This document shows positions 13,827-47,034 of a stretch of 47,243 nucleotides of DNA, piece after piece. The position numbers and the translations under genes are program-made. Below the pieces are notes generated by a model. It made no database searches, was not told the origin of the DNA, and worked only from the letters and a program-made list of their open reading frames with translations. Source of the DNA: Desulfobacterales bacterium CG2_30_60_27 (GTDB lineage Bacteria; Desulfobacterota; Desulfobulbia; Desulfobulbales; CG2-30-60-27); the NCBI GenBank assembly GCA_001873115.1, contig MNYK01000030.1:1-47243 (forward strand). Direction: 5' to 3'. Each line of letters opens with the position of its first letter. Within the stretch, counting starts at the first letter, position 1.

Positions 13827-15476
13827 TTAGCGGTGAGTCTTGTTAAGGTTGAACTCAGGATAGGCGTTTACCGCCACTTCACTATGGTCAAGGCCAGCCA
13901 GTTCCATCTCCTCGGAAACCCGGAGCGGCACGAACTTGTCGAGTACCTTGAAGAATACGTACATGATCACAAAGACAAAGATGATATTGGTGGCGGTGCC
14001 GATCAACTGGGCCGTAAACTGCGAGGCATCGCCATAGAACAAGCCCTTGACCGTGCCGGCCACGCCGTTCAGGCCGTCGCCGTAAGTACCGTCGGCGAAG
14101 AGTCCCACGGAAAGCACGCCCCAGGCGCCGTTGACCCCGTGCACCGAGATGGCGCCTACCGGATCATCGATTTTCATAACGCGCTCCACAAAGAAGACGC
14201 CGAGGCAGAGGAAGATGCCGGCGATGGCCCCTATGGCGACCGCGGCCACTGAATTCACAAAGGCGCAGGGCGCGGTAATGGCCACCAGTCCGGCCAAAAA
14301 GCCGTTGGCGATCATGGAGATATCCGGTTTGCCGTAGCGGTTCCACATGTAGAGCATGGAGGTGAAGGCGGCCGCAGCCGAGGCCAGCATGGTATTGACG
14401 GCCACCACGCCGATCCGCAGGTCGCCGCCCGCCAGGGTGGAGCCGGCATTGAAGCCGAACCAGCCAAAGGCCAGGATGAAGCAGCCAACCATGGCCATGG
14501 GAATGTGGTGACCAGGAATGGCGTTAGGGGTGCCGTCCGCCTTGAATTTTCCCCGCCGCGGTCCTAGGACCAAGGCACCGGCCAGGGCGGCCACGCCGCC
14601 GGTCATGTGCACCACGGAAGAGCCGGCAAAGTCTACATGGCCATGGCCGAGTGCAAAGTTTTTACCAAGCTGCGACAGCCAGCCGCCGCCCCATACCCAG
14701 TTGGCATACAGGGGGTAGACGATGGCGGAGATAAAGAGGCCGTAGACCACGAAGGACTTGAAGGTCCAGCGTTCCGCCATGGCGCCGGTCGGAATGGTAG
14801 CCGTGGTGTCCATAAAGACCATCTGAAAGAGGAAAATGGTAAAGACCACGGCATCATAGGTCGTGTTGGAAAGGAAGAAGCCCTTGGTGCCGAACAGTCC
14901 GAAACTCTTGCCAAACAGGGTAATGGCGAACTCGCTGTTGAGCACCGTGGCGCCACCCAGGGTGGCGGCCCCGCCACTGCCGCCCATCTGAATGGCAAAG
15001 CCGCAGGCCCAGTAGCCCAGGATGCCCAGGGCATAGATCATGAAGTTCATGGCCATGGTATGGCCGGCATTCTTGGCCTGGGTAAAACCGGTCTCGGCCA
15101 TGGCGAAACCGGCCTGCATGAACATGACCAGAAAGCCGCAGACCAGGGTCCAGACGATGTTGACCGCGACCCGGTTATGGCCGATGACGTCGGCCAATTT
15201 GAGGGCCAGCGGCTCCTTGGGGCCGAGGTTTGTCATGTCTGCCGCGGAAGGCGCGCCAGCAGTCACCCCAACCACGTCAGCCGCGCCACCCGTGGCGGCC
15301 CCGCTGGGATCCGGAATCGGCTCGACCACGACAGAAGCGGGCGGAGCCGCATCAGTCCGCGCCACCGTTGTGCCGGCGAGCGGTGGCACGGATGCCATGT
15401 CATCCGCCCCCAGGATCGGCACCATGCCATACAAAAAGACAAGGGCCAAAAGTAGAATGCGCAGCGACCTCTTCAT
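13827..15476 (-). CDS. amtB: ammonium transporter with N-terminal extension
   Basis: A 549-residue Amt/MEP/Rh transporter that moves ammonium across the inner membrane. About eleven hydrophobic helices are visible; the twin pore histidines lie in V-V-H-M-T-G-G-V and I-S-V-H-G-V-N-G-A. A signal-like N-terminus is followed by an Ala/Pro/Val-rich linker of about 50 residues and then L-A-L-K-L-A-D before the first core helix, making it longer than the usual 400-450 residues. ATG 15476 has GAGGAGC upstream; the 12-residue longer reading is less likely. It leads the amtB-glnK-torF operon behind a sigma-54 promoter, as expected for nitrogen control. Confidence 0.93.
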   Translation of the reverse strand: MKRSLRILLLALVFLYGMVPILGADDMASVPPLAGTTVARTDAAPPASVVVEPIPDPSGAATGGAADVVGVTAGAPSAADMTNLGPKEPLALKLADVIGHNRVAVNIVWTLVCGFLVMFMQAGFAMAETGFTQAKNAGHTMAMNFMIYALGILGYWACGFAIQMGGSGGAATLGGATVLNSEFAITLFGKSFGLFGTKGFFLSNTTYDAVVFTIFLFQMVFMDTTATIPTGAMAERWTFKSFVVYGLFISAIVYPLYANWVWGGGWLSQLGKNFALGHGHVDFAGSSVVHMTGGVAALAGALVLGPRRGKFKADGTPNAIPGHHIPMAMVGCFILAFGWFGFNAGSTLAGGDLRIGVVAVNTMLASAAAAFTSMLYMWNRYGKPDISMIANGFLAGLVAITAPCAFVNSVAAVAIGAIAGIFLCLGVFFVERVMKIDDPVGAISVHGVNGAWGVLSVGLFADGTYGDGLNGVAGTVKGLFYGDASQFTAQLIGTATNIIFVFVIMYVFFKVLDKFVPLRVSEEMELAGLDHSEVAVNAYPEFNLNKTHR

Positions 15477-15508
15477 GATAAGCTCCTCTTTGGTGATAGT
15501 TATAAAGG

Positions 15509-15541
15509 ACACCGTTTGTTTTAGTTAAAAGCAAACGGTGT
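15509..15541. promoter_or_regulatory. strong dyad overlapping the amtB promoter
   Basis: ACACCGTTTG (15509-15518) and CAAACGGTGT (15532-15541) are a perfect 10-base inverted pair, extended inward by TTTTA/TAAAA to an almost continuous 33-base dyad. It covers the -12 element and runs into the likely transcription start region, so it could be an operator or a 5' mRNA hairpin. Confidence 0.55.
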
Positions 15542-15545
15542 GCCA
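15531..15545 (-). promoter_or_regulatory. sigma-54 promoter for amtB-glnK-torF
   Basis: On the minus strand the site reads TGGCACACCGTTTGC followed by T, matching the -24/-12 consensus TGGCAC-N5-TTGC with exact spacing. It ends 54 bases before ATG 15476. Nitrogen-regulated RpoN control of amtB/glnK is well established in Proteobacteria, so the position is biologically sensible. Enhancer (NtrC-like) sites were not identified. Confidence 0.85.
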
Positions 15546-32651: not shown

Positions 32652-35246
32652 TCAGCCGTTCGGTGCCACATCGCCCTGAGCGGCCACCAGGTTGGTCAGG
32701 CCATAGTCCCCTTGGATAAAGGCATCGGCAACCTGCCGAACCATGCCATCATCGCCCATGGCCGCGTCCAGCAGCCTGGTGAAGCCCAATAGCCGGCCCA
32801 CCACCACCAGCTTTTCCTCGATAACCGCGGCCGGGGCGCCCTGCAGGGTGGCGTTGACCAGATCGTCCCGCACGTCTGCCAGAAAACCATAGTGCTCGAG
32901 GATGGTGCCGATACAGATGGCCCGCCGCTGGCGCCGGACCAAGTTGGCGCCGCCGCCCTTGAAGCGGAACTGGATATGGTTGTTGCGGGGTTCAACAGCG
33001 CAGACCGCGTCCACCATGGTGAAATGGAAATCCATGCGGGCGTTCAGGTTGCAGTAATCGCGGCTGACCATGGCGTAGTTGGGCATGCCGATCGGCCGGC
33101 TCGACTTGTGGTCGGTAAGCCAGGAGGAAACCACCGACCCCATCGGGCTGCCCCCCGGCGGTGGACCCCAGGCCAGACCAGGGGTGACGATGCCCTGCCA
33201 CAGGGCGCAAAATGGCCGGGAGACCACCCGGTCCGGGCTTATCCGTCGCATGGTGCGGCCTTCCAAGGCGAGGCCGCCGCCCACATCGATGATACTCACG
33301 AAAAACGGCACCGGGGCATCCAGGATGTGCACCGCACCAAGGTTTTCCTCCAGGGTAACGTCGCCGGCATTGAACATGGCCAGGACCGCCTTTTCATGGA
33401 CATAACGGACGATATCGTGCAGGGAATGGCACTCCAGGATGTTGAAGGTCGGGCCGTAGGCATCGGTGAGGTTCAGGGCCGTGATCAGTTCCCGTAGTTC
33501 CTGCTGCAAGGGCGGCATGGCCTGGGCGACAGTCTGCCTGGCGGCGGCCGGCTGCCACGCGGCCACGGCCGCGGCGATCTCTTCCTCGGTGGCGGCATGC
33601 ACCTGGCCGTGGGAGCCGTCCACCGTTACCCAGCCCGCGTCGGCCAGGGAACGGGAGGCGTCGCCCAGGCCGGAGATAAGTGGTACGGCATGCTCTCGGG
33701 CCACGCAGGCGAGATGGTCGGCCGGGTTGCCGAGATCCACCAGCACCCCGGCCACCAAGGGCAAAATGTTGGCCGCGTCCACAAAGCTCTGTGGCATGAC
33801 CAGCACCGTTGGTTCAGTTGGTTCCGCCACCAGATCCTGGCGGTTGCGTACCAGACGCACCCGGCCGGTGGCCCGGCCGCCGGCCGCGCCGATACCGCTG
33901 GCCAGCGGCGGTGGACCGGACGAGCTTCGCGGGGGCGGCTGACCCTGCAGAGTGGTGAGCGGCCTGGCCTGGAGCAGGAAAAAATCCCCGGCCTGGTCCA
34001 TGGCCCATTCCACGTCCTGGGGAGTTTTGGCCCATTCCTCCAAGTCCACCGCCCAGCGGGCCAGGGTGCCGAGTTCCGCCGTTTGCAGCAGTGTTTGCTC
34101 TTGCAGAGCGCGGGGCACGGGTTCCCATACGACCCCGCCGCCCTTCTGGCAGGCGAGTCTCTGCTCCTTGGCCACGATCACGGAACGCGTATGGTCCACG
34201 GTCCCGTCACGCCCGAGGTAATACAGGTCCGCCGCCGCGCTGCCGGACACAGCCGCCTCGCCCAGGCCGGGAACGGCGCTCACCAGGATTACCCCGCTGT
34301 CCGGATCTTGGGGCAATCTGGTGAGCAGAATGCCGGCCACCCGCGCCGCCACCATTTCCAAGCAGAGAACGGCCATGTCAAAGGCCAGAGGGTCGAGCCC
34401 GGCATGCCGGCGATAGGCGAGGCTCCTGGCGCTGAAACTGCTGGCCACCACTTCGCGGAAGGCGGCAAGAAGCTGCTGCTCGTTGGTAATGTTGAGCACC
34501 GAGGTGAACTGACCGGCAAAGGAGTGGAGCTGGCCATCCTCGCTTGCACTACTGCTGCGAACCGCGAGCCCGCGGTTGTTTTTAAAAAACGGTCGGGCCG
34601 CGTCAAGCAGGGCCGTGGCCAGTGGGGGCGGCAGGGGGGCGTTGCGGATGAGTTCCTGCAGCTCCCGGCTGTCATCGGCTGACCAGGTTTCGGTAAGCCG
34701 GGTCACCAGGCGGGCCAGTCCCAGGGAAAGCCCCTGATGTTCCAGAAAGAGCCGGCAGCCGGGCAGGGTGACCACAAATCCGTCCGGCACCCGGAATTCC
34801 GGGCGGGCCGTGAGCCTGGCCAGCACCGAGGCCTTGTTGCCCAACTGGCCGGCCGGCGCCGCCGCCGCGCTGCCAAGAGGCACGCACAGCGGCGGGTTTA
34901 CCGGTGCGGGCAGGTTCGTCGCCAGGCGGTCTTCAATGGCGCTGGCGATACGGCGGTGGGTGGCGAACAGCAAGCGGTGGCGGTCTGGCTCCAGCCAGTT
35001 CAGCTTCTCCACCATTTCCCGGGTCTCGACGATGAGCCGTCGGGCCAGTGGGGCCAGTTCGGCCTCGCCCCCCACGGCGTGTAGCCGCATGGCGATTTCG
35101 GTGACCGCATCCACGGCCCGGGCGTTACTGGCCAGTACGGCGCGGAAGGCATGGTATCTGGCCTTGAGCAGGGTGATGGCCTCGGTGCGGCGCAGCAGGC
35201 GCCGGGCCCGGTGTTGTTCGATAATTTTTTTGACCAGGCCCAGCAT
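32652..35246 (-). CDS. PEP-synthase-like phosphotransferase, paralogue A, no TIM barrel
   Basis: An 864-residue protein with four parts: a helical N-terminal segment (about 1-110), a PPDK/PEP-synthase ATP-grasp domain (about 125-430: G-N-K-A-S-V-L-A-R, V-R-S-S-S-A-S-E-D-G, D-V-E-W-A-M-D-Q and L-Q-A-R-P-L), a swivelling histidine domain with catalytic His511 in P-A-D-H-L-A-C-V-A-R-E, and a C-terminal domain of about 280 residues shared only with the two neighbouring paralogues. The PEP-binding TIM barrel of true PEP synthase is absent, so the enzyme probably moves phosphate from ATP through the histidine to an unknown acceptor. AAGGAG precedes ATG 35246, five bases after paralogue B. Last gene of the operon. 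Confidence 0.85.
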   Translation of the reverse strand: MLGLVKKIIEQHRARRLLRRTEAITLLKARYHAFRAVLASNARAVDAVTEIAMRLHAVGGEAELAPLARRLIVETREMVEKLNWLEPDRHRLLFATHRRIASAIEDRLATNLPAPVNPPLCVPLGSAAAAPAGQLGNKASVLARLTARPEFRVPDGFVVTLPGCRLFLEHQGLSLGLARLVTRLTETWSADDSRELQELIRNAPLPPPLATALLDAARPFFKNNRGLAVRSSSASEDGQLHSFAGQFTSVLNITNEQQLLAAFREVVASSFSARSLAYRRHAGLDPLAFDMAVLCLEMVAARVAGILLTRLPQDPDSGVILVSAVPGLGEAAVSGSAAADLYYLGRDGTVDHTRSVIVAKEQRLACQKGGGVVWEPVPRALQEQTLLQTAELGTLARWAVDLEEWAKTPQDVEWAMDQAGDFFLLQARPLTTLQGQPPPRSSSGPPPLASGIGAAGGRATGRVRLVRNRQDLVAEPTEPTVLVMPQSFVDAANILPLVAGVLVDLGNPADHLACVAREHAVPLISGLGDASRSLADAGWVTVDGSHGQVHAATEEEIAAAVAAWQPAAARQTVAQAMPPLQQELRELITALNLTDAYGPTFNILECHSLHDIVRYVHEKAVLAMFNAGDVTLEENLGAVHILDAPVPFFVSIIDVGGGLALEGRTMRRISPDRVVSRPFCALWQGIVTPGLAWGPPPGGSPMGSVVSSWLTDHKSSRPIGMPNYAMVSRDYCNLNARMDFHFTMVDAVCAVEPRNNHIQFRFKGGGANLVRRQRRAICIGTILEHYGFLADVRDDLVNATLQGAPAAVIEEKLVVVGRLLGFTRLLDAAMGDDGMVRQVADAFIQGDYGLTNLVAAQGDVAPNG

Positions 35247-35251
35247 GCCGT

Positions 35252-37810
35252 TTACTCCTTGTCGCCGACGGGCAGAACGCGGACCTTATGCAGGAATTTC
35301 TGAAAATGGTGTTCCACCGCGGCCTCATCCCGCATGTGGACATCAAGCCCGCGGGTGAAGGCGATGAGTTCGCCCAGCATGGTGAGGATAGAGACCATCC
35401 GCCCGGCGTCCAAGGTTTTGGCCTTGGCCACCAGCAGGTCACCTTGGCTGTTCACCTTGAAGCTTAACCCGGCGAGGACGGCGGCGATGAATTTAACCCG
35501 CCGGGCCCGCTTGGTCTTGTCGGCAAAGCCGCCCACAAAGCGAAAGTAGATGTAGTTGTCATCCGGCTCCTGGGAAAGGTAGGCATCCACCACGTTGAAG
35601 TGGTAGCCAAGGCGCAGGCTCAGGTTGCAGTAACGCTCGGCAATGATGGCCAGATTTTCCCCGACGTAGGCGGGGGCGTTGGTGAGCATGGAGAGCGGTC
35701 TGCTCATACTGGCCAGAACGTCCTTGAAGTCGAGCGGCGCCGGCTCGCGATCCCAGGCGGTTTCTTTTTGGAGGCCGGCCAGCAGGGCAACCAGGGGCTG
35801 GCTCTGCACCATATCCATCGTGACTACGCCCGTGGTCGCGGCCGCGGCGGGACTCAATCCGCTGCCCAGGTCGATGACCCGCAGCTTGATAGGGACGGCC
35901 ACGCGCAGGGGCCGGCTGCGCACCCCCTTGCTGCCTTGCGGGCTGGCATGGAGATGGATCAGGGCGTCAACGGCCTTCTCATGGGAGAAACGCAGGATGT
36001 CGTGAAAGGTTCGGCAGCCGGCCGGGGTGAAATCCGCGGCCCCGGGGTCCACCAGGGTGATGGGCGCCACCCAGCGCAACAGCCGCCGCAGGGCCTGGAC
36101 CTCCGCGGAACGCAGGTAAGGTTCTGCCTCGGACGCCTGGGCCGCCTGCAATCGGACCAGGCCGGCGAGGATGCCCGGGTAGATCCGCTTGTTTTCCACA
36201 TCAACGGTCACCTCGGCCCCTTCGGTCAACACGGCCGTCGCCTCCCCGGTGCCGAAGAGGGCCGGGGTGCGGTATTCCCGGGCAATGGTGGCGAGATGCC
36301 CGGTTGGGCCGCCCACGTCGGTGATGATGGCCGCGGCCCGCAGAACTATCGGACTGAGTTGTGGGCTGGGAAAACGTGCCACGGCGATGCCGCCCACCGG
36401 AAAGAGGTCCGGGTCGGTGTCGTCGTCCACATGATACACGTTGCCGGCGGCGATCCCCAGTTGGGCGGCCTCGCCCTTGCCTTGGAGCAGTGGTTTAGCC
36501 GCCGCCAGTTCGGAGGTGATCTCAGCGGGTGGCGGGGGCGGCAGGCGCGGCAGGACCAGTGGCCGGCTCTGCAGAATAACCAGTTGCCGGCCAATGGCCC
36601 ACTCCAAGTCCTGGGGGCCGCCCAGGGTCTTTTCCAACAACAGGGCGGTTTCCGCCAGCCTTTTTAGCATCTCCGGCAGCAGCATGGCGCTCCCCCGCCG
36701 CAGACCGGATGGCAGTATTCGCAGGGCATTTTGTTCCGGACCGGAGGATGGCGGCTCGGGCAGGATGGCGCTTTCCACCAGATCAAAGGGGTGGAGGCGG
36801 TTCACCGTGTAACGATCGGCCGCCACCCGGCCAGCCACCAGCTCTTCTGCCAGGCCCCGTACCGCGCTTATCAGCATGAGCCCGCTGTCTGGCCGCTCCG
36901 GGTCGCGTGAATAGAGGATCCCGGAGGTCCGGGCCGGGATCATCTCCTGGACGGCCACCGCCATGGGCAGGTCACGGCTTAGAGCCGTCTTGCCCATATA
37001 CTCAAGGGCGGCCGCCGAAAACCGGGAGGCGACCACCTGCCGGTAGGCGGCGAGCACGGCCTGGATCTCCGGCCGCACCCCGAGCACGGAATGGAACTGG
37101 CCGGCAAAGCTGCGCGGGCCGTCATCCTCGCCAACGCCGCTGCTACGGACCGCCAGGTCAACCGGGCCACCGCAGTGCTCTAGAAGCGCCTCGAGTTCCC
37201 GTGCCAAGGTCTCGACCAGGGGCTCGGGGAAGCGCGCCTGATCGAAGAGCAGAGCGATGCGGTCGGCCCGCTCCCGGTTGCCGTTCGCGCCGGCCAGCAC
37301 GGCGTCAATCTGGACAAAGAGGTCGTTTCCCTCCATGAATTGCTGGTAGGCGACCCTGGTCACGGCAAAGCCGTTCGGGGCAGCAAGGCCCAGGTGATTG
37401 CGGATCTCTCCCAGGGTAGCGTTCTTGGACCCCACCAGTTCGTTCAGATCGCCATCCACCAGGTCATAAGGCAAAACCAGACTGTGGTCGTAAGGGCCGC
37501 CGAAACCGGCGGCCAGGATCGTCAGTCGGCCGGCGATCTCCTCATAGCGATTGTACAGATCGAGATAGCGGTTGTCAGCCAGGGCGTTAAGGCTGAAGAT
37601 CACCTCGCGGAGCAGTTCGTTCAGTCTGTCCACTGATTCCCGCAGGAATTTCCGGTCAAAGACGTATTCGCCGGCCAGGGCGCGTTCCAACTCGGCGATG
37701 GTCTCGATCACCGCGTTATTCAGATCCAGGATGCGGCGGAACCGATGGAAGCTGGCGGCAAAGGAGGCCGGCGCCAGGCCCGGGTCCAAAGGCTGGAAAC
37801 GAGGGGCCAC
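35252..37810 (-). CDS. PEP-synthase-like phosphotransferase, paralogue B, no TIM barrel
   Basis: An 852-residue paralogue with the same layout: helical N-terminus (about 1-120), ATP-grasp domain (V-G-S-K-N-A-T-L-G-E; A-V-R-S-S-G-V-G-E-D-D; D-L-E-W-A-I-G-R; L-Q-S-R-P-L), histidine domain with His505 in G-G-P-T-G-H-L-A-T-I-A-R-E, then the shared C-terminal domain carrying F-H-D-I-L-R-F-S-H-E-K-A-V, V-I-D-L-G-S-G-L, A-E-R-Y-C-N-L and Y-F-R-F-V-G-G. Of the three its histidine motif is nearest to the classical G-G-x-T-x-H. It starts at GTG 37810 with AAGGAG upstream, right after the kinase stop. Confidence 0.85.
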   Translation of the reverse strand: MAPRFQPLDPGLAPASFAASFHRFRRILDLNNAVIETIAELERALAGEYVFDRKFLRESVDRLNELLREVIFSLNALADNRYLDLYNRYEEIAGRLTILAAGFGGPYDHSLVLPYDLVDGDLNELVGSKNATLGEIRNHLGLAAPNGFAVTRVAYQQFMEGNDLFVQIDAVLAGANGNRERADRIALLFDQARFPEPLVETLARELEALLEHCGGPVDLAVRSSGVGEDDGPRSFAGQFHSVLGVRPEIQAVLAAYRQVVASRFSAAALEYMGKTALSRDLPMAVAVQEMIPARTSGILYSRDPERPDSGLMLISAVRGLAEELVAGRVAADRYTVNRLHPFDLVESAILPEPPSSGPEQNALRILPSGLRRGSAMLLPEMLKRLAETALLLEKTLGGPQDLEWAIGRQLVILQSRPLVLPRLPPPPPAEITSELAAAKPLLQGKGEAAQLGIAAGNVYHVDDDTDPDLFPVGGIAVARFPSPQLSPIVLRAAAIITDVGGPTGHLATIAREYRTPALFGTGEATAVLTEGAEVTVDVENKRIYPGILAGLVRLQAAQASEAEPYLRSAEVQALRRLLRWVAPITLVDPGAADFTPAGCRTFHDILRFSHEKAVDALIHLHASPQGSKGVRSRPLRVAVPIKLRVIDLGSGLSPAAAATTGVVTMDMVQSQPLVALLAGLQKETAWDREPAPLDFKDVLASMSRPLSMLTNAPAYVGENLAIIAERYCNLSLRLGYHFNVVDAYLSQEPDDNYIYFRFVGGFADKTKRARRVKFIAAVLAGLSFKVNSQGDLLVAKAKTLDAGRMVSILTMLGELIAFTRGLDVHMRDEAAVEHHFQKFLHKVRVLPVGDKE

Positions 37811-37813
37811 GGC

Positions 37814-39289
37814 TCACTCCTTGGGGGCCAGGGGCAGCATCACCAAAAACAAGGTTCCCTGCCCCGGATGGCTTTCCACCTTGATTTCCCCATGATGGTC
37901 ATTGATGATGGCGTAGCTCACCGCCAGGCCCAGGCCGGTGCCCTCGGTCTTGGTGGTGAAGAAGGGATCGAAGATCTGCCGCTGGATGTCGGCGGGCATG
38001 CCCTGGCCGGTATCGCGCACCTCGGCCACGGCGAGGTGTTGCTCCTGGTCAAGGCTCACCGCCGTTGAGAGAACACCACCGGGCTGCATGGCCTGGATGC
38101 CATTCAAAATCAGATTGACAAAGACCTGCTGCAATTGATTGGGGTCGCCGACGATCCAGACCGGGGCCGGGACCGGATGAAAATGGCTGGTGATTTTCCC
38201 CAGGTGGAGCTGGTTTTTCACCAGGGCCAGGGAATTTTCCACGAGCTTGGCCAGATCAATCTTCAGCAGGGCGCCTGGCTTGCGGGCCCGTGAGAATTCC
38301 AGCAGATTGCCGACTACCTCCCGGGCCCGGTCGGCCTGGACGAGAATGTCGTGGACCATCTCCAGCCGTTCGCTGCACTGAAGATGGGGAAGATCCTCCA
38401 GCAGCACCTCGGTGGTCAGGTAAATATTGTTCAAGGGGTTGTTGATCTCATGGGCAATGCCGGCGGTCAAGCGGCCCAAGGCCGCGAGCTTGGCGGACTG
38501 GATGAGTTGCGTCTGTTTGGCCTCCAGGGCCGCCAGCATGCGGTTCAAGGAATTGGCAAGTTCCACTCCCTCCACCGAATCCCGAATGGCGGCGTCCAGC
38601 GGAATGGACGCGGTCTCACCATGCATGATGCGGGCCGCGGCGCGGCGGATGGCCTCGAGGGGTCCGGTGATCCAGGGCACCAGAAAAAAGATGAGTACGC
38701 TACCGGCCAGGGCGGCCAGGAAGAGGATATAGACCGCCATCTTCTGAAAACCCCACACCTCCCTTTCCACGGTTTGCTTGGCCTTGGCATCCATTGTCAG
38801 GAGCTGCTCGGTAAGGGCCGAGCCGCGTTCCCGCAATTCCTCCCGGAGGCCAGCCGTGCGTTTGGCCGGCAGATCATGGTTGCGCAGTTGCCGCAAGGTG
38901 TTTTCATATGCGGCCAGTCTTTGGTCGTAGGGCGGTTCGACACCAGCCATGGAGCGGGGTGACAGGCCGCGGACCCCGGCGATGGCCGAGCGGACTTCGT
39001 CCAGGTAGTCAAAGGCCAGCATGAGGTCCCGCTCATTGCCGAACAGCAGGTAATTTTTTTCATAGCGCCGGGTTTCGAGGACCTTCTGATTGAGTTCGCA
39101 GAAGGATTCGATGATGAGGATTCTGTCCTCCATCCGCCACATGGCATAGATGACCGCCGAGGTGGCAAGTGTCCCCAGGAGGGAAACGGCCAGTAGGCTT
39201 ATGATGAGCTTGCCGCGGATGGACTTGGGGAAAAAGGGCAACACCGTATGCTGGTCGGCGGGCGCGGTCATGTCATGGTCGTCGGGCAT
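37814..39289 (-). CDS. membrane sensor histidine kinase
   Basis: A 491-residue kinase. Two transmembrane helices (about 24-48 and 177-200) enclose a helical periplasmic sensor of about 130 residues with the E-T-R-R-Y-E-K-N-Y-L-L-F motif of HBM/CHASE3-like bundles. A HAMP segment, then the HisKA box with His280 in I-A-H-E-I-N-N-P, and the ATPase with N-L-I-L-N-G-I-Q-A-M, D-T-G-Q-G-M and G-T-G-L-G-L-A-V follow. ATG 39289 has AAGGATG upstream and lies four bases after the receiver stop; the frame to 39310 overlaps that gene. Receiver and kinase are a likely pair controlling, or acting with, the three PEP-synthase-like proteins. Confidence 0.9.
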   Translation of the reverse strand: MPDDHDMTAPADQHTVLPFFPKSIRGKLIISLLAVSLLGTLATSAVIYAMWRMEDRILIIESFCELNQKVLETRRYEKNYLLFGNERDLMLAFDYLDEVRSAIAGVRGLSPRSMAGVEPPYDQRLAAYENTLRQLRNHDLPAKRTAGLREELRERGSALTEQLLTMDAKAKQTVEREVWGFQKMAVYILFLAALAGSVLIFFLVPWITGPLEAIRRAAARIMHGETASIPLDAAIRDSVEGVELANSLNRMLAALEAKQTQLIQSAKLAALGRLTAGIAHEINNPLNNIYLTTEVLLEDLPHLQCSERLEMVHDILVQADRAREVVGNLLEFSRARKPGALLKIDLAKLVENSLALVKNQLHLGKITSHFHPVPAPVWIVGDPNQLQQVFVNLILNGIQAMQPGGVLSTAVSLDQEQHLAVAEVRDTGQGMPADIQRQIFDPFFTTKTEGTGLGLAVSYAIINDHHGEIKVESHPGQGTLFLVMLPLAPKE

Positions 39290-39293
39290 ATCT

Positions 39294-39701
39294 TCATCCT
39301 TGCAGGTCATCCTGCCGCTTGGCCTCCAGGGCTCGGAAAACCATGTCCTTGAGGGTGTCCAGGCGAAAGGGTTTGGCGAGAAACTCGAAGACGCCCAGTT
39401 GACGGGCCTTCTCGGCGGTGGCCTCGTCCGCGTAGCCGGTGATGATGATCACCCGGGTGGTGGGGTACAGCAGCCGCACCTGCCTGAGGACCTCCATGCC
39501 GTCCATGTCCGCCATTTTCAGGTCGGTCACCACCACGTCGAAGGGCTTCTCGATCATGGCGGCCATGGCCGGCGCCCCGTCAACGAAGGTCTCGATCTCG
39601 AATCCCATCTTGCTGAAGACTTGCCGCAGTCGCTTGCCGACAATGGATTCATCATCCACCACCAGCAGCCGGCACGGTTGATTTTGGTCGCAACTCTGCA
39701 T
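39294..39701 (-). CDS. single-domain response regulator
   Basis: A 135-residue receiver with Asp16/Asp17, phospho-acceptor Asp60 (V-V-T-D-L-K-M), Thr88 (I-T-G-Y) and Lys110 (A-K-P-F). There is no DNA-binding domain, so output must be by protein contact or phosphotransfer, possibly to the PEP-synthase-like proteins or to the NtrC-type regulator upstream. It lies between paralogue C and the kinase gene. The 76-base gap to paralogue C contains CAGC-type repeat tracts. Confidence 0.9.
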   Translation of the reverse strand: MQSCDQNQPCRLLVVDDESIVGKRLRQVFSKMGFEIETFVDGAPAMAAMIEKPFDVVVTDLKMADMDGMEVLRQVRLLYPTTRVIIITGYADEATAEKARQLGVFEFLAKPFRLDTLKDMVFRALEAKRQDDLQG

Positions 39702-39777
39702 GGTTTTCTCCTTGTTATAGCGTTCAGCTTAAAATACCGTATAACAAAATTTGTAGCTGCAAGCTGACCGCTCTTCA

Positions 39778-42375
39778 TCATCTGCCAACGATGCCGTAAT
39801 CCCCCATGAGAAAGGCCTCGGCAAACCGTTCCACCGCCGCGTTGTCGTCCATCCGTACGTCCAGTTGGCGGGTGAAGCCGATGAGCCGGCCCAGGATGTC
39901 GAGGGTCCGTTCCATCTCGTCTTGGTCCAGAACGCTGGTGCGAGCGATGACCAGGTCGCCCTTGGTCTGGACGTTGAAGTCAAAGGCCTTGAGGATGATG
40001 GCCAAAAGGGCGGCCCGGCGCGAGCGTTTGGCAAGATCCGTGGCGCCGCCCAGGAAGCGGAAGTAGATATGGTTGTCGCGCGCCACCTCGTCGCAGAAGG
40101 CATCGATTATATTAAAATGATAGCCGAAGCGGAAGCAGAGATTCACATAATTCCGGCTGATAATGGCGATGTTACGACCGGTATACTGGCCGGTGATGGC
40201 GTCTTGGGGGGCGCTCAGCATACTGTTCATCATATCTCGGAAACTTACCGGCATGGCATCCTGATGCCATACCTCGGGATACAGCAGACCGCGCAGGATA
40301 GCCTGAAACGGTCGGGAGGCGATGGCGCTAACGGGCACCGCCTCGGGCGGGGCGTCCGCTCTCAGACCACCGCCGATATCGATGACCAGAATGCCGGCCA
40401 TGATCGGCAGGTCCAGGCGCCGGGCCAGGTGTTCGCGCTGCACACAGCGTTCGTCGCGCCCTACCTCCACCAGTTCCAGCACCGCCGTTTCATGGATAAA
40501 GCGCAGGATGTCGTGAAAGGTCTGACAGTTCTCGGCCTGAAAATTCTGCATGAGTGGGTCAACCAGGTGCAGGCGGGAGGACTCCTTGAGCACCCGGCGC
40601 AGCAGACGGAATTCCGGGGCCACCTTCAGATTGATGGAGGTGGTGGCCTGGTAGGTGAGCAGTTCGACCACCTGGCCGCGATACACCCGGCGGTCCTCGG
40701 CGTCCACCGTGATTTCCTCGCCTTGGGCCACCCGGGAAAGGATGTTCGGGATGCCGACGATGCACGGAATGACGAATTCCCGGCAGAGGGTGGACATATG
40801 GCTCACCGGCGAGCCCATCTCGGTGATGATGGCCGCGGCTCGGTGCATGACCTGGGCGAACTGGGAAGAATCCCGGTGACTGACGAGCACCGCCCCTTCG
40901 GGCAGACCGGCGATATCATCCGGGGTCTCCACCCGATATACCTTGCCCGCCCCAATGCCTTGCTGGGCGCTGCGGCCCTCGCCATCGGCAATAATTTCAT
41001 AGTGGGCCAGGGTGTTGCTCAATGGCCGTCTTTCCCGGTCCGGTTCCGTGACGAGCAGCGGCCGGGCCTGGAGGATGAACATCTGTCCGCCATGGTCCAC
41101 GGACCACTCGATATCCTGGGGCCGTTTGAAAAAATTCTCAAGGTGCAGGCCGATCCGGCCCAGTTCCTGCAACTGGGCATCACTCAGGCAGGGCAGACCC
41201 GCCTCGCTGCTGCTCACTGCCCTGGTTTGCAGCCCGTTGCCATGGTCGGTCGGATGCAGGGCTTCGTTTTTCACCATCACGGCCCGCTCTAGAATTCCGG
41301 CGGGCTCGGCCTTGGCCAGGCGGAAAAAATCCGTGGGTACCTGCCCCTCGACCACGGCCTGGCCCTGCCCCAGGGCGCCGACCACCACCATGGTCTGGGA
41401 CTTCGGGTCCATGGGGTCCAAAGTGTAGAGTACCCCGCTGGCCCTGGAGTCCACCATGCGCTGGCAGCAGACCGCGATGGCCATGGGCCCGCCTTCCGGG
41501 AAGACCTGGCGCCGGTAGGTCACGGCCCTGGCCCCGAACAGGCTGGCCGCCACCTGGCGGTAGGCGGCGAACACCTGGTCCGCCGTGCCGGCCACCTGCA
41601 GAACGGAAAGAAACTGACCAGCGAAGGAGAAATCCAGGTCTTCTTCCTGAGCACTGCTGCGAATTGCCAGGAATATCGGCTGGCCCGCCTCGGACGTCAT
41701 CCGCGCCAGAAATTCGCCGACGCTGTCAAGGAAGGCGGCCGGTGGGCCGGTGACCCGCACCATATCTTCCAACTGTTGGCGCGTCTCTTCCAGTACCGCC
41801 TCGTTATCCACACCACCGGTGAGCATGGCCTCAAAGCGAGCGAACAGGGGGAGCAAGCCACCCTCATCCATGAAGTCATGAAACATGCGGGTGGTAATGA
41901 CAAAGCCGGGGGGGACGCGGACGGCCGGATCATGAATCATCTCAGCCAGGTGGGCGCCCTTGCCACCCACCAGAGGCCAATCCCGGGGGCGGATTTCCTG
42001 GAGCCAGCCCAGGGCGGGCCCCTGCCAGTCCTCCAGACCGCTCATCATGATCCGGACCCGGCTGGCCAGTTGGTCACAGATGGGGTAGAGCGTCTTGCAA
42101 CGGCCGTTAGTCAGGTCGTTGATGCGGTCGATGGCCTGGTGCACCGCAATCACCATGTCCTCAATGGCGGTTTCTATATAGTGCCGGTCAAACAGGTATT
42201 CGCCGCCGAGTTTTTCGCCCATGTCGGCGATGATTTCCAGGGCGTGGTTGTCGGCGCGCAGTACGGCCCGAAACTGCTGAAAGATGATGGTAATCGGTTT
42301 ACAGAAATCACCGGTAGCCACCTTGCGTGGCCAGGGTAACGAAAAATGTTTGGAGAAACGGTTGAGAAGAGACAC
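39778..42375 (-). CDS. PEP-synthase-like phosphotransferase, paralogue C, no TIM barrel
   Basis: An 865-residue paralogue, first gene of the operon. Order: helical N-terminus (about 1-135), ATP-grasp domain (V-G-G-K-G-A-H-L-A-E-M; A-I-R-S-S-A-Q-E-E-D; D-I-E-W-S-V-D-H; L-Q-A-R-P-L), histidine domain with His526 in G-S-P-V-S-H-M-S-T-L-C-R-E, and the shared C-terminal domain (F-H-D-I-L-R-F-I-H-E-T-A-V, V-I-D-I-G-G-G-L, S-R-P-F, S-R-N-Y-V-N-L, Y-F-R-F-L-G-G, L-I-G-F-T-R-Q-L-D). GTG 42375 is preferred because GGAGG lies upstream; TTG 42408 adds 11 basic residues. Phenylphosphate synthase and rifampin phosphotransferase show that this family can serve other acceptors. Confidence 0.86.
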   Translation of the reverse strand: MSLLNRFSKHFSLPWPRKVATGDFCKPITIIFQQFRAVLRADNHALEIIADMGEKLGGEYLFDRHYIETAIEDMVIAVHQAIDRINDLTNGRCKTLYPICDQLASRVRIMMSGLEDWQGPALGWLQEIRPRDWPLVGGKGAHLAEMIHDPAVRVPPGFVITTRMFHDFMDEGGLLPLFARFEAMLTGGVDNEAVLEETRQQLEDMVRVTGPPAAFLDSVGEFLARMTSEAGQPIFLAIRSSAQEEDLDFSFAGQFLSVLQVAGTADQVFAAYRQVAASLFGARAVTYRRQVFPEGGPMAIAVCCQRMVDSRASGVLYTLDPMDPKSQTMVVVGALGQGQAVVEGQVPTDFFRLAKAEPAGILERAVMVKNEALHPTDHGNGLQTRAVSSSEAGLPCLSDAQLQELGRIGLHLENFFKRPQDIEWSVDHGGQMFILQARPLLVTEPDRERRPLSNTLAHYEIIADGEGRSAQQGIGAGKVYRVETPDDIAGLPEGAVLVSHRDSSQFAQVMHRAAAIITEMGSPVSHMSTLCREFVIPCIVGIPNILSRVAQGEEITVDAEDRRVYRGQVVELLTYQATTSINLKVAPEFRLLRRVLKESSRLHLVDPLMQNFQAENCQTFHDILRFIHETAVLELVEVGRDERCVQREHLARRLDLPIMAGILVIDIGGGLRADAPPEAVPVSAIASRPFQAILRGLLYPEVWHQDAMPVSFRDMMNSMLSAPQDAITGQYTGRNIAIISRNYVNLCFRFGYHFNIIDAFCDEVARDNHIYFRFLGGATDLAKRSRRAALLAIILKAFDFNVQTKGDLVIARTSVLDQDEMERTLDILGRLIGFTRQLDVRMDDNAAVERFAEAFLMGDYGIVGR

Positions 42376-42736
42376 CCGCCGCCTCCGGTCCCTGGTCTGC
42401 CTCGGCAAAAAAAATCACGATTAGCTCAGGAACGTTATAAGAATTGTAACTATCCAGCTTGGGTCGGCATTTAAGCGTTGCCGGGCTGGCCATGCCTTGC
42501 GCTCATGCTCGGCGGGCGTCCTGCCCGCCTCCCGCGCCTGAGGTCGCGGACAAAGCCGCGCAAAGCATGGCCAGTCCGGGAACTCACCCGGGTAGCGGTT
42601 CCGCTGCACCCTGACAGGGCGCGGCTGGCTACCTTTTTCACCATACCAGCCAATTGGCCGGCTGGCTGCGAAAAAATACAGCCAGCCGGCCAAGATGTAT
42701 CAGGAGTTAACCTGTCGGACCTCAAGCAATTGCCGG
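42376..42736. repeat. gene-free region with structured dispersed repeat, copy 2
   Basis: Core 42463-42607 matches 12089-12258. GCCGGGCTGGCCATGCC (from about 42480) pairs with GGCCAGTCCGG and flanking bases near 42569-42580; inner GGCGGGC/GCCCGCC and outer CCGG and AGCGG-TT-CCGCT hairpins repeat the structure of copy 1. The left edge has GTAACTATCCAGC (42446-42458), here in the opposite orientation to the end of copy 1. Frames crossing it are not genes. The region separates the PEP-synthase-like operon from the TauE operon. Confidence 0.75.
42656..42691 (-). terminator. strong hairpin after the TIGR02186-like gene
   Basis: GGCCGGCTGGCTG (42656-42668) and CAGCCAGCCGGCC (42679-42691) form a perfect 13-base stem around an A-rich loop, 45 bases past the stop of the minus-strand gene. 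No T run follows, so termination is likely but not certain. Confidence 0.5.
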
Positions 42737-43552
42737 TCAATGGCTGCCGCCACCCTTCTTGAAGACGGCGCCGACCCCTAGACCGGCAACCAGGGCCACG
42801 ATCACGGCCATGAGCCCGTACAGCCCGGCATGCTTCGTGGCCATTCCGGACAAGGTGGCCACCAGGCCGGCCTGCTCCACCAGAACCCGGGTTGAGGCGC
42901 GCTCCACCACATGGCCATCCCGCACCGCCAGTACCTCCACGATATAGTTGTGGGGCTGGGCCTGAAAGGGCCAGTCCACCACCACCTGAAACTGGTTGCC
43001 GGTTGCCCCGTGGCGTCTGACTACGGTACCCTCGTGGATGCTGTAGAGACACTCCTTTTCCTTCAATTTGATAAACTCATCAAACCAGTAATGATCGACA
43101 GCCTTGCCCTCTTCGTCTTCCATGGTTGCCTTTGCTCCCAGGGCTTCGTAGCCCAGACCACTGGCGTTGAGGTCCGCCGGCTCAAGGATTCGTCCCAGGT
43201 CGGCGGTGGAGTAAAGCATATAGGCGAGGGGCAGTCCCTTGAACTCAATATCACCCTTTTTCATCCAGACAACCCCGCCCACCTTGGTTTTGCGCTTCAT
43301 GTGGGTATCGGTGGGCTCGGTGCTGATCTTGACCACGATATCGTCGGTGGGGGCGGACTCGCCGCTGACCGTCAGCGTGGCGCCGTGGTAGCCGAAGGTG
43401 ATGGGAATCCGCGCCGGCTGTACCTCAGCGGTGAGGGCGCCGACTGAAACCGTTTGCAGCAAGGCGGACAGGCCGAGGGCGCAGGCGATTATCAAGGGAA
43501 AACGATGTGGGAAACGTACTTTTCCCAACAGTTTAGAAGTAGACCGCGACAT
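42737..43552 (-). CDS. TIGR02186-like membrane-anchored protein
   Basis: A 271-residue protein with a signal peptide (about 40 residues including a basic leader), a beta-rich periplasmic part opening I-T-F-G-Y-H-G-A-T-L-T-V-S-G, and a C-terminal membrane helix (about 240-263) ending in K-K-G-G-G. This architecture matches the TIGR02186 family, whose genes lie beside TauE/SafE exporters. It starts directly after the exporter stop. Its role is unknown; help with sulfite or sulfonate export is inferred from partnership. Confidence 0.8.
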   Translation of the reverse strand: MSRSTSKLLGKVRFPHRFPLIIACALGLSALLQTVSVGALTAEVQPARIPITFGYHGATLTVSGESAPTDDIVVKISTEPTDTHMKRKTKVGGVVWMKKGDIEFKGLPLAYMLYSTADLGRILEPADLNASGLGYEALGAKATMEDEEGKAVDHYWFDEFIKLKEKECLYSIHEGTVVRRHGATGNQFQVVVDWPFQAQPHNYIVEVLAVRDGHVVERASTRVLVEQAGLVATLSGMATKHAGLYGLMAVIVALVAGLGVGAVFKKGGGSH

Positions 43553-43554
43553 GA

Positions 43555-44487
43555 TTAGTGACCTCCGGCGTAGGCAAGATGAAGAGAAGGTTCCATGACG
43601 AGTTCCAGCACGATTTTGACGGTTACCGCCAGGACGAGGATGGCCAGCAGGATTTTCAACTGGTCGCCATGGAGCTTGCGGCCAAGAACTGTGCCGATTT
43701 GCGCGCCGAATACCGAGCCGACCAGCAGGAGCAAAGCGAGGATGAAGTCAACCGTGCGGTTGCTGTAGGCCTGCAGAAAGGTAACCTCGACACAGGTAAA
43801 GAGGATCTGAAAGAGGCTGGTGCCAACCACCACATGCATGGGCATGCGCAGCATGTAGATCATCACCGGCACCATGAGAAAACCACCCCCCACCCCCATG
43901 ATGGCCGCGAGAACACCGACAAAGACCCCGAGAGCAAGTGGCACCAGGCCGGAATGGGTTACCCCGGACTTTTCAAAATGCATCTGCATGGGCAGGGACC
44001 GCAAAAAACCGCTCTGCTTTTCTTCCTTTTTTTGCTTGGCAGCCACGGCACTCTTCGCGGCGCCCTTGTTTTTATGCAGGGCCAGCAGGCTTTCCACAAA
44101 CATGAAGGAGCCCACCCCGCCCAGCATAACCACGTAGGTGATCTTGATAAGGAAATCCGCGCCGCCCGTGGCCCGGAGGAGCTTGATAAGATGCACGCCA
44201 GCGGCGCCGCCGACAAAACCGCCAATCAGGAGCAGCAGGCCCATCTTGAAATCAACATTGCCCAGCCGCCAGTGGGCAAACATTCCGGATGACGAGGCGG
44301 CCACGATCTGGTTGGCATCCGTTGCCGCCGCTATGGTCGGCGGAATGCCGATCATCATCAAAAGCGGGGTCATGAGAAACCCGCCGCCCACGCCGAAGAG
44401 GCCGGACAGCAGCCCGACCACAAGCCCCAGGCCGATCACCAGCAGATAATTGACGCTGGTGAGGGCGATTGGAAGGTACATGTACAT
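43555..44487 (-). CDS. TauE/SafE family anion exporter
   Basis: A 310-residue inner-membrane protein with about eight helices in two halves, each with the family signature: G-L-F-G-V-G-G-G-F-L-M-T-P in the first and I-M-G-V-G-G-G-F-L-M-V-P in the second. TauE/SafE proteins export sulfite, sulfoacetate or related anions. A Lys/Glu-rich cytoplasmic loop (about 140-165) joins the halves. ATG 44487 sits six bases after AAAGGAGG; ATG 44493 would overlap the ribosome binding site. Paired with the TIGR02186-like gene, it suggests sulfur-anion handling, consistent with a sulfur-active anaerobe. Confidence 0.9.
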   Translation of the reverse strand: MYMYLPIALTSVNYLLVIGLGLVVGLLSGLFGVGGGFLMTPLLMMIGIPPTIAAATDANQIVAASSSGMFAHWRLGNVDFKMGLLLLIGGFVGGAAGVHLIKLLRATGGADFLIKITYVVMLGGVGSFMFVESLLALHKNKGAAKSAVAAKQKKEEKQSGFLRSLPMQMHFEKSGVTHSGLVPLALGVFVGVLAAIMGVGGGFLMVPVMIYMLRMPMHVVVGTSLFQILFTCVEVTFLQAYSNRTVDFILALLLLVGSVFGAQIGTVLGRKLHGDQLKILLAILVLAVTVKIVLELVMEPSLHLAYAGGH

Positions 44488-44564
44488 TTTCATCCTCCTT
44501 TTGCCGTGAAATGATAAGTGATTATCCTAAAAAATTTTTCAGCCAAAATCGTTGGCCTCATGAA

Positions 44565-45080
44565 TCAAGCCTGTCGCGCCATGCCGTAACCCAGCGGTTG
44601 CTTAAGCTGGGCGATGACCCGGGCCAAGGTGGAATCGTCCCATGGTTCCATTATGATGGACCAAAAAGACGGCAGATACCACCTGCTATCTTTGGCAAGC
44701 TGGTCGCGCAGCCTTTCGACCCATGCTTTCTTGTCCTTGAGCGCCGCCTGATCACGGGCGCCGGCAATGAGACAGAACACCCGGTGGACACACAGAAACT
44801 CCACCAGGGCATGGTCGTCGGCGCTCTCCAGCACATGGCTCTGCACCGGTACCCGTTCAACGCTGCCGAGCCAAGCGGTGAGACCAAGAAGTTCGTTGCC
44901 GCAAGGAGTTGCAGCCTTTGCCACTATTCCGCCGCCAAACGCATCGTCCTGGCGTGCATCGTTTCCTAGAAATACCGCATGCACGACCGCATTGGTTCGT
45001 TTCCCGAATTCAACGGCCTGGATACTTGCGGCAAGATCGGCAAAGTTGCCCCCCAACAGCAGGGCAATTCCCAGACGCAT
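44565..45080 (-). CDS. divergent universal-stress-protein-like protein
   Basis: A 171-residue soluble protein. The pattern of a first strand (L-G-I-A-L-L-L-G-G) followed by a helix, A-V-V-H-A-V-F-L as a second strand, then a central A-D-D-H-A-L-V-E-F-L helix and a L-I-A-G-A-R-D-Q-A-A-L strand-loop, resembles the Usp fold, but the nucleotide-binding G-x2-G-x9-G motif is missing. Placement upstream of the TauE gene suggests a stress or sulfur link. AAGGA precedes ATG 45080. I cannot assign a function. Confidence 0.6.
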   Translation of the reverse strand: MRLGIALLLGGNFADLAASIQAVEFGKRTNAVVHAVFLGNDARQDDAFGGGIVAKAATPCGNELLGLTAWLGSVERVPVQSHVLESADDHALVEFLCVHRVFCLIAGARDQAALKDKKAWVERLRDQLAKDSRWYLPSFWSIIMEPWDDSTLARVIAQLKQPLGYGMARQA

Positions 45081-45351
45081 GGTTGTCCTTTGTTCATGGT
45101 GAATCGGCCCTGATTGGCACTACCATCTTATGGTCATTAGTAAAGCAATAACCATGCCAATATTATTATCTTGTTGTTTATGCGTTAAATTTGTTTTGAT
45201 AAAGCACAACCGCGCTGGCTCACTGTTGCCGGATGAAACAGGTGGTCTGGCAACATATTGAAATTACGCGGATTCATGGATTGAAACACCTGTTCAGTCT
45301 TGCAACAGAATCAGGCTTCAAGCAACTTAGGGAAGGAGAGAAAAAATTGAA

Positions 45352-46743
45352 TCAGGGGCCGCCCGAGTCATCCGGGCCAGCATCCGGGGGCAACCGGCCG
45401 AATTCCTTCAAACGCCGCCACAGGGTGGTGCGGGAGATGCCGAGCTGCCGGGCGGTTTCGCTTTGGTTGAAACCGGTCCGGCGGTACACGTCGAAGATGT
45501 GCGCCTGTTCGAGTCGTTTCAGGGAGGGGTCCACTTCTTCGGAGATGGCCGGGCCGGCCTCGGCAAGGACGAGATCTGGCGGCAGCGCCTTGCTTGACAG
45601 CACCGCTCCCCTCGACATGGCCACCGCCGCCTCAACAATATGTTGCAGTTCCCGGACATTGCCCGGGAAAGGGTAGGAGGTAAGCGTGGCTAAAAAATCT
45701 GCTGAAACCGTGGGCTCCGGCTTGCCGAATTCCCTGGCGGCCAGGACAACAAAGTGGGCGATCAGCGCCTCGATGTCCTCAGGTCGCTTGCGCAACGGCG
45801 GCAGGTCAATCATGACCACCTTGAGCCGATAATAGAGATCCTGGCGGAAATCGCCGGCCTCGATCATCTTCTCAAAATTGCGGTTGGCCGCGGCGATGAA
45901 GCGCACGTCCAGGCTGATGGGGGTAACCCCGCCTACCCGGTAAAAGGTGCGTTCTTGAATGACCCGCAGCAGCCTGATCTGCATGGACAGCGGCATCTCC
46001 GCTACCTCATCCAGAAAAATCGTGCCGCCATTGGCGGTTTCCAGCAGGCCCAGCTTGGTGCTGACCGCCCCGGTGAAGGCTCCCTTTTCATGGCCGAAAA
46101 GTTCGTTGGCCACCAGCTCCTCGGTAAAGGCCCCGCAGTTAAAGGGGACAAAGGGGCGTCCAGCCCGTGGGCTGTTGCGATGCAGGGATCTGGCCACAAG
46201 TTCCTTGCCGGTGCCGCTTTCTCCCTGGATGAGAACATTACAGTTGAGCGGCGCCACCTGGGTGATGGTTCGGAAGACGTCCTGCATGGCAGGCGAGGCG
46301 CCGATGATTTCCCCGAACCGGCCGCCTTCGCTCAGTTCCCTGGCGAGTCTGTTTTTCTGATTGACGCAGTGCCGGCTAGCCTCGGCATCCTTGACCGCGT
46401 TGCGAAGTTCGTTCAACTGGAACGGTTTCGCCAGGTAGGTGAAGGCCCCTTTTTTCATGGCCTCCACCGCATGATCCACGGTTGCATACCCGGTCATCAG
46501 GATGACCAGGGTGTCCGGGGCAATCTTTAAGAGACGCTGCATGAAATCCATGCCGTTCGCATCCTGCAGGCGGACATCGATGATCATGAGGTCGGGCGTT
46601 ACCTGCCGCACTCGTTCCATGGCCTCGGTGGCGGTTGTGAAGCCCTCCACTTCGTAGCCATCCTTGGTAAGGGTATGCACCAACCGGCGCACGGTGATCG
46701 ACTCGTCGTCAAGGATATATATGCAAAATCGGTCAGAAAACAT
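45352..46743 (-). CDS. sigma-54-dependent response regulator, NtrC family
   Basis: A 463-residue activator: receiver (Asp12/Asp13, phospho-acceptor Asp56 in I-I-D-V-R-L, A-K-P-F), AAA+ domain with Walker A G-E-S-G-T-G-K-E, the sigma-54 contact loop G-A-F-T-G-A and a F-L-D-E-V Walker B, then a Fis-type helix-turn-helix (S-E-T-A-R-Q-L-G-I-S-R-T-T-L-W-R-R-L). It turns on RpoN promoters when phosphorylated. ATG 46743 begins at the receiver; the longer reading to 46800 adds a Pro/Arg-rich leader. No kinase is adjacent; the kinase at 37.8 kb is the nearest candidate. Targets are unknown. Confidence 0.92.
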   Translation of the reverse strand: MFSDRFCIYILDDESITVRRLVHTLTKDGYEVEGFTTATEAMERVRQVTPDLMIIDVRLQDANGMDFMQRLLKIAPDTLVILMTGYATVDHAVEAMKKGAFTYLAKPFQLNELRNAVKDAEASRHCVNQKNRLARELSEGGRFGEIIGASPAMQDVFRTITQVAPLNCNVLIQGESGTGKELVARSLHRNSPRAGRPFVPFNCGAFTEELVANELFGHEKGAFTGAVSTKLGLLETANGGTIFLDEVAEMPLSMQIRLLRVIQERTFYRVGGVTPISLDVRFIAAANRNFEKMIEAGDFRQDLYYRLKVVMIDLPPLRKRPEDIEALIAHFVVLAAREFGKPEPTVSADFLATLTSYPFPGNVRELQHIVEAAVAMSRGAVLSSKALPPDLVLAEAGPAISEEVDPSLKRLEQAHIFDVYRRTGFNQSETARQLGISRTTLWRRLKEFGRLPPDAGPDDSGGP

Positions 46744-47034
46744 TTTCCCCGTCCGCGGCCCGCGGGGGCCGGCAGTTGATCTTAATTCTAGGGGGCGCAC
46801 ATGATGCCAACAGGCATGGGCTTTGTATTCCAGACGAGGGCCGCTGTCAAGTCATGACCAGCAGCCTTGCACTGACTGGCGGACTGGCGGGGACATCTAT
46901 TTATCTATTGGATGAATTAGAAAAATAAATAACGGCCCCCTTTGTGCTCCTTAATCCGACAGCCAAACGCTATATTTATTGCTAAACCTCCAACGTCTCA
47001 AATGTATCGTAACTATCCAGCTCAAAAAAAAAAT
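46744..47034. other. gene-free stretch upstream of the NtrC-type regulator
   Basis: No gene is supported. The left part is GC-rich (CGCGGCCCGCGGGGGCCGG just before the start codon), the right part AT-rich. GTAACTATCCAGC at 47009-47021 repeats the motif at the ends of the structured repeats at 12.3 and 42.4 kb, followed by a run of A. The ORF on the minus strand through 46951-47160 lies largely in repeat sequence. Confidence 0.45.

Follow-up and report, generated by a model that had tools for sequence, protein, structure and literature searches.

Barrel-less PEP-synthase-like paralogues beside two-component and TSUP transporter genes: a candidate phosphotransfer module in dsrA-bearing bacteria

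What might three PEP-synthase-like proteins do in a single operon if none of them carries the PEP-binding barrel? The question is raised by paralogues A, B and C, which lie in a window of 47,243 nucleotides (the whole stretch of DNA analysed here) from Desulfobacterales bacterium CG2_30_60_27. An earlier note, made from the sequence alone, had described them as barrel-less relatives of PEP synthase sharing one operon with a histidine kinase and a receiver, and we followed this description through domain composition, fold prediction, genomic distribution and published genetics.

Gene layout and domain make-up of the paralogues

All genes of the cluster are encoded on the minus strand. Paralogue C runs from a GTG at position 42375, with GGAG just upstream of it (the frame is open from a TTG at 42408), to 39778. 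It is followed by a stand-alone receiver domain of 135 aa (39294..39701; PF00072, 6e-28), a membrane histidine kinase in which Pfam recognises HisKA (PF00512), HATPase_c (PF02518) and a weak HAMP domain (37814..39310), paralogue B (35252..37810) and paralogue A (32652..35246). Because the successive gaps are only 76, −17, 3 and 5 nt, these five genes very likely form one operon, with the kinase and receiver between C and B as the earlier note had placed them.

The operon extends beyond what that note had covered, since a sigma-54 site, a small ORF, a TauE/TSUP gene and a TIGR02186 gene all precede C. The predicted sigma-54 (−24/−12) promoter, TGGCATGGTTATTGCT (45144..45159, minus strand), shows zero mismatches to TGGCAYRNNNNTTGCW and precedes the first gene, the small ORF of 171 aa (44565..45080), by 64 nt. 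This ORF has homologues at the equivalent place in related loci; a Pfam scan of it gave no match, and it looks like a degenerate universal-stress-protein fold. Next come a TauE/SafE membrane transporter of the TSUP family (43555..44493; PF01925, 3.7e-50), 80–84% identical in close relatives, and its partner, a TIGR02186/Alph_Pro_TM membrane protein (42737..43552; PF09608, 2.3e-48). Directly upstream of the operon, Pfam identifies an NtrC-type response regulator with receiver, sigma-54 AAA+ and Fis HTH domains (45352..46800, minus strand).

The gap of 328 nt between the TIGR02186 gene and C contains a 15-bp perfect inverted repeat (42654–42693, minus strand; TTGGCCGGCTGGCTG / CAGCCAGCCGGCCAA, loop TATTTTTTCG), and the operon may therefore also be controlled internally, ahead of C, with the repeat as a possible attenuator or control site. 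An Rfam search found zero elements. Elsewhere in the window, an exact TGGCAC-N5-TTGC sigma-54-like site (15531–15545, minus strand) is located just upstream of an ORF at 13827–15512.

In each of A, B and C, Pfam profiles detected an ATP-grasp domain (PPDK_N, PF01326; E = 4e-57 to 1e-73) and a PEP-utilizers swivel domain (PF00391; E = 5e-11 to 5e-18), and none of them matched the PEP-binding barrel (PEP-utilizers_C, PF02896) at E ≤ 1. The genome's own canonical PEP synthase (contig C61), scanned as a positive control, matched PF02896 at 9.5e-61. The swivel histidines are His511 in A, His505 in B and His526 in C, exactly as first noted; the last is counted from the GTG and corresponds to His537 from the TTG, the start used for all residue numbers of C below (K150 to D818). 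Past the swivel, Pfam gave nothing convincing, and here A, B and C share a C-terminal (CT) domain of about 290 aa (39778..40653 in C, minus strand), close to the ~280 residues first estimated. Identity to C is 36% for B and 31% for A over the full length, rising to 40% and 34% in this C-terminal part. The three proteins also have in common an N-terminal three-helix region of ~95–110 aa, which the earlier note did not mention. An HPt or DHp domain was considered for these helices and rejected, as the predicted three-helix bundle gave no significant match in a fold search.

Compared with known systems, the front half of the paralogues is familiar and the rest is not. PEP synthase (PpsA) and PPDK share with them the ATP-grasp domain followed by the swivel histidine, and PDB entries 8a8e and 2ols cover residues ~135–584; A, B and C differ in their extra N-terminal helices and in having the CT domain in place of the PEP-binding barrel. 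Rifampin phosphotransferase (Rph) likewise combines PPDK_N and a swivel histidine with a non-barrel acceptor domain, but its order is ATP-grasp, rifampin domain and swivel rather than ATP-grasp, swivel and CT, and the CT domain is unrelated to it by sequence search. Phenylphosphate synthase (PpsAB) resembles the paralogues as a case of PEP-synthase chemistry redirected away from pyruvate; its ATP and histidine parts reside on separate subunits, whereas A, B and C fuse them in one chain. Enzyme I of the PTS also has a swivel histidine domain that hands phosphate to proteins, but it takes this phosphate from PEP on a barrel, while the paralogues have an ATP-grasp domain and no barrel.

Family models point the same way. 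Against NCBIfam, the paralogues scored 211–279 bits with the PEP synthase model TIGR01418 (cut-off 739.75) and 160–202 bits with the rifampin phosphotransferase model NF041857 (cut-off 999), and their partial matches include RIF_Ptrans_rph, PigC and RedH. Judged by these features, A, B and C fall outside PEP synthase, PPDK, Rph and phenylphosphate synthase, with the same predicted front-end chemistry, and we found no known enzyme of identical architecture with an assigned substrate. A role in anti-phage defence was considered and rejected, as PADLOC models matched none of A, B, C or the transporter genes and the receiver only weakly.

Two further proteins of this genome are of related type. 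A fourth copy on another contig (C138, 8248–8934) is truncated to 228 aa near the contig end and spans the swivel and the beginning of the CT domain. A different PEP-synthase-like protein (contig C51), in a frame of >950 aa, has PPDK_N beginning near residue 458 and a swivel domain, without a match to the PF02896 barrel.

The CT domain and its conserved residues

An alignment of 90 homologous CT domains was used for remote comparisons. None of its members matched a Pfam family above chance, PF02896 included, and a sequence search of the PDB gave no match. AlphaFold2 modelling of the CT domain of C (pLDDT 83.7, pTM 0.78) produced a confident mixed alpha/beta structure with a beta-meander, distinct from the alternating (beta-alpha)8 order, and Foldseek found zero matches for this model in the PDB at E ≤ 1e-3 (query TM-scores ~0.2). 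Comparison of the fold with viral structure models also gave zero matches. The profile and fold searches suggested by the earlier note thus ended without a Pfam, PDB-sequence or PDB-fold relative, and no canonical TIM barrel is predicted in the CT domain.

These results bear on the simplest alternative, namely that the three paralogues are normal PEP synthases or PPDKs with a barrel too divergent to recognise. Homology to PEP synthase is clear over its first ~460 residues, as this would require, but PF02896 is absent from 90/90 CT domains while it readily detects the true PEP synthase of the same genome, and the predicted meander-containing fold found no PDB counterpart. Pfam scans, the AlphaFold2 model, Foldseek and the PF02896-positive control together lead us to reject a hidden TIM barrel, and this explanation is extremely improbable.

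Across 133 full-length proteins, the ATP-grasp residues K150, R250, E434, Q447 and R449 and the swivel histidine H537 are invariant (133/133). The CT domain contributes its own invariant set, H632, D633, R636, H639, E640, P700, H764, D769, N779, R784, G787, G788, R798 and D818, most of which persist in 47 added copies from other genomes (R784 varies). In total, the ATP-grasp residues and the swivel histidine are all intact in 176 of 180 aligned copies; the other four have lost ATP-grasp residues and/or the histidine, two of them lacking any swivel match, and retain the CT residues. One copy without a working ATP-grasp or histidine (locus L153) adjoins a TauE gene. Since these defective copies keep the CT residues, the CT domain has some role independent of its own phosphotransfer half.

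Such conservation could be that of an active site. The paralogues would then be metabolic dikinases, with the CT domain catalysing ATP + X + H2O → AMP + Pi + X-P, where X is a sulfur compound brought into the cell or some metabolite belonging to dissimilatory sulfur metabolism. PEP-synthase-type chemistry can be redirected to small molecules, as in phenylphosphate synthase and rifampin phosphotransferase, and the intact ATP-grasp and swivel histidine, the active-site-like CT invariants and the partial matches to RIF_Ptrans_rph, PigC and RedH are all in keeping with this. We nevertheless consider it unlikely, though a serious contender: CT domains are retained in copies without ATP-grasp residues or a swivel, the constant genomic partners are signalling and transport genes rather than those of a pathway, and protein phosphatases are recurrent neighbours.

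Two other candidate features of the family were examined and set aside. The threonine beside the catalytic histidine was considered as a PSRP-type regulatory site, and the column proved variable (T in 61, A in 39 and V in 30 of 133 proteins). Long ORFs of 1,124–1,833 aa in other genomes were considered as fusions and are taken as upstream open frame in GC-rich DNA.

In a tree of 182 CT domains, A, B and C fall into three separate clades (support 1.0, 0.70 and 0.995), and trio members from other genomes are each nearest to their own type. The trio is therefore ancient rather than the product of a recent triplication.

A matching Desulfovibrio cluster

This type of cluster has already been touched by geneticists; its CT domain is largely undescribed. 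In the part of Korte et al. 2014 (PMC4001038) drawn on here, a poorly annotated "nitrate cluster" is reported from D. vulgaris (DVU0251–DVU0245) and D. alaskensis G20 (Dde_0597–0605), comprising genes for TauE (DVU0251), a hypothetical protein (DVU0250), a PtxB-like protein (DVU0249), a histidine kinase (DVU0248), a receiver (DVU0247), a PPDK_N plus swivel protein (DVU0246) and a phosphatase (DVU0245). The same part of the paper contains no description of the C-terminal domain of DVU0246. At two homologous loci, L143 (genome G291) and L149 (G093), the gene order is a PtxB-like periplasmic protein (Phosphonate-bd, PF12974), a histidine kinase, a receiver of ~120 aa, a PPDK_N, swivel and CT protein and a dual-specificity phosphatase (DSP), and in L143 TauE and a membrane protein lie upstream of the PtxB-like gene. 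This order equals the published one of DVU0251–DVU0245, and both loci carry the CT domain, which suggests that DVU0246 is itself a member of the CT family.

According to PMC4001038, isolated D. vulgaris mutants in DVU0246, DVU0247, DVU0250 and DVU0251 resisted nitrate, growing equally with or without 100 mM of it, so that losing the receiver or the PPDK-like gene has the same effect as losing the transporter; for DVU0250, results of pooled and isolated mutants disagree. The G20 cluster mutants are described there, from unpublished data, as mildly sick on thiosulfate, and the authors' proposal, a leaky thiosulfate transporter, is taken up again in PMC9723548. The DVU0245 mutant remained nitrate-sensitive and the mutant of its G20 homologue gained fitness (PMC4001038). 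The lack of resistance in the DVU0245 mutant fits an opposing role and equally no role, and we gave it no weight; the transposon insertions may also be polar.

The nitrate cluster and the window both combine TauE/TSUP, a histidine kinase, a lone receiver and a PPDK_N plus swivel protein. They differ in that the former has a PtxB-like periplasmic protein, a DSP phosphatase and a single PPDK-like gene, while the latter has TIGR02186, three paralogues and an NtrC regulator, without a PtxB-like protein or phosphatase. Because TIGR02186 stands in place of the PtxB-like protein, the substrates of the two clusters may differ.

Distribution, neighbourhood and a proposed role

A scan of GTDB contigs for the CT family returned 252 places, and the 79 loci examined belong to Desulfobacterota, Nitrospirota, Desulfofervidaceae, Abyssobacteria and similar lineages. 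The search for plasmid-borne relatives found zero. The CT domain is present in 110 of 296 sampled Desulfobacterota genomes (completeness at least 90%) and in 42 of 148 Nitrospirota genomes, that is, in about one third and more than one quarter, respectively, with up to about nine copies per genome; even so, it is described in none of the libraries searched and defines a large unannotated family.

A match over the cut-off to dsrA, a gene of sulfite respiration, was found in 146/296 Desulfobacterota genomes, comprising 108 of the 110 CT carriers and 38 of the 186 non-carriers (Fisher P 6e-45, with genomes counted regardless of shared descent). The corresponding figure for Nitrospirota carriers is 38/42, and the remaining four include two genomes in which the dsrA match is split and one whose match is in the dsrB range. 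Carrier genomes reached via the loci, a set that overlaps the Nitrospirota sample, have dsrA over the cut-off in 27 of 32 cases. In the sampled genomes, CT-family members are nearly always confined to dsrA-bearing lineages. Shared descent confounds this association, and the CT domain is absent from 38 dsrA-bearing Desulfobacterota genomes.

The genes around the CT family are also conserved. The order C, histidine kinase, B, A recurs in 19 related loci and is thus not a chance arrangement; upstream of it are the NtrC regulator (in conserved position), the small ORF, TauE and TIGR02186. Within 6 kb of the CT gene, 69 of 78 loci carry a histidine kinase or lone receiver, a co-occurrence that the earlier note had proposed to survey; 41 carry TIGR02186 and 37 carry TauE. 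Among 36 loci from other genomes, TauE was found in 16, a histidine kinase in 22 and a lone receiver in 20, and TauE is missing from the surroundings of many solitary CT copies. Conversely, 48 of 64 TIGR02186 genes in the 296 Desulfobacterota genomes lie <4 kb from a CT match. A sigma-54 site with at most one mismatch is located near the first gene in 19 of 34 related loci, as opposed to 2.6% of length-matched random stretches. As for phosphatases, a calcineurin-like metallophosphatase directly adjoins the CT gene in 12 loci, in addition to the DSP of L143 and L149.

The linkage to a histidine kinase, a lone receiver and sigma-54 control also allows a different interpretation, in which the paralogues sense adenylate charge: binding of ATP, AMP or phosphate would set the state of the CT domain and tune the kinase, the receiver or the NtrC regulator, and net phosphotransfer outward would not be the point. 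Sulfate activation makes AMP and pyrophosphate, so the near-restriction to dsrA genomes would suit such a sensor, as would the existence of copies without catalytic residues. The catalytic histidine and five ATP-grasp residues kept in 176/180 copies are more than a pure sensor needs, and we regard a sensor as distinctly unlikely. The data do not decisively separate either this interpretation or the dikinase from the model that we prefer.

Our preferred model, held tentatively and with slightly less than even confidence, is a signal-controlled, ATP-driven histidine phosphotransfer module acting as a positive regulator of a TSUP sulfur-oxyanion transporter. A, B and C would belong to the PEP-synthase superfamily as enzymes that have the new CT domain in place of the PEP-binding barrel. 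Conservation across the 180 aligned proteins suggests that ATP bound in the ATP-grasp domain phosphorylates the swivel histidine, and the phosphate would then travel on the swivel to the CT domain, which is conserved and rich in His, Arg and Asp, or to some protein bound at that domain. Control of the module would fall to the lone receiver and the membrane histidine kinase, and its task would be to turn on or assist TauE/TSUP, together with TIGR02186, in taking up a sulfur oxyanion (probably thiosulfate or a related compound) in dsrA-bearing bacteria. Transcription would start at the sigma-54 promoter, with the neighbouring NtrC-type regulator as its probable activator.

We propose control of the transporter on the basis of synteny, genomic co-occurrence and the mutant phenotypes published for the matching Desulfovibrio cluster. 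The linkage to TSUP and TIGR02186 (or another membrane partner), the near-restriction to dsrA genomes, the phosphatase neighbours and the Desulfovibrio genetics favour a sulfur-oxyanion transporter as the target over an unspecified metabolic acceptor. The signal-controlled phosphotransfer system suggested by the earlier note is thereby supported as to its barrel-less architecture, intact ATP-grasp and histidine, new domain and linkage to kinase and receiver; transfer of phosphate from the swivel histidine to a new acceptor is a proposal.

A more specific version, which we think rather unlikely, is a phosphorelay resembling the PTS but fuelled by ATP rather than PEP. Phosphate would pass from the swivel histidine of A, B or C to the CT domain and on to a protein (the receiver, the transporter or a partner), phosphatases would remove it, and the relay would gate TSUP sulfur-oxyanion transport in dissimilatory sulfur metabolisers.

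The CT domain may represent a new acceptor or effector for PEP-synthase-type phosphotransfer. It also offers a molecular way into the Desulfovibrio nitrate-resistance cluster, which is poorly annotated and relevant to nitrate dosing against oil-field souring. Since D. vulgaris mutants are reported in PMC4001038, control of TSUP transport in sulfate reducers is directly testable.

Some CT loci have other neighbours. Loci L135, L153, L154 and L155 encode, beside TauE and near the CT gene, a membrane protein family of ~245 aa without a Pfam match, apparently an alternative partner to TIGR02186. In Nitrospirota loci (L054, L060, L064 and similar), pairs of MshEN and DUF202 membrane proteins and universal stress proteins adjoin the C-type gene, and L013 has a single MshEN/DUF202 gene after A; MshEN is a domain of the c-di-GMP-binding type. 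Finally, membrane-anchored sigma-54 activators with sensor and AAA+ domains lie directly upstream of solitary CT genes in L123 (11385–14081) and L154 (4061–6703).
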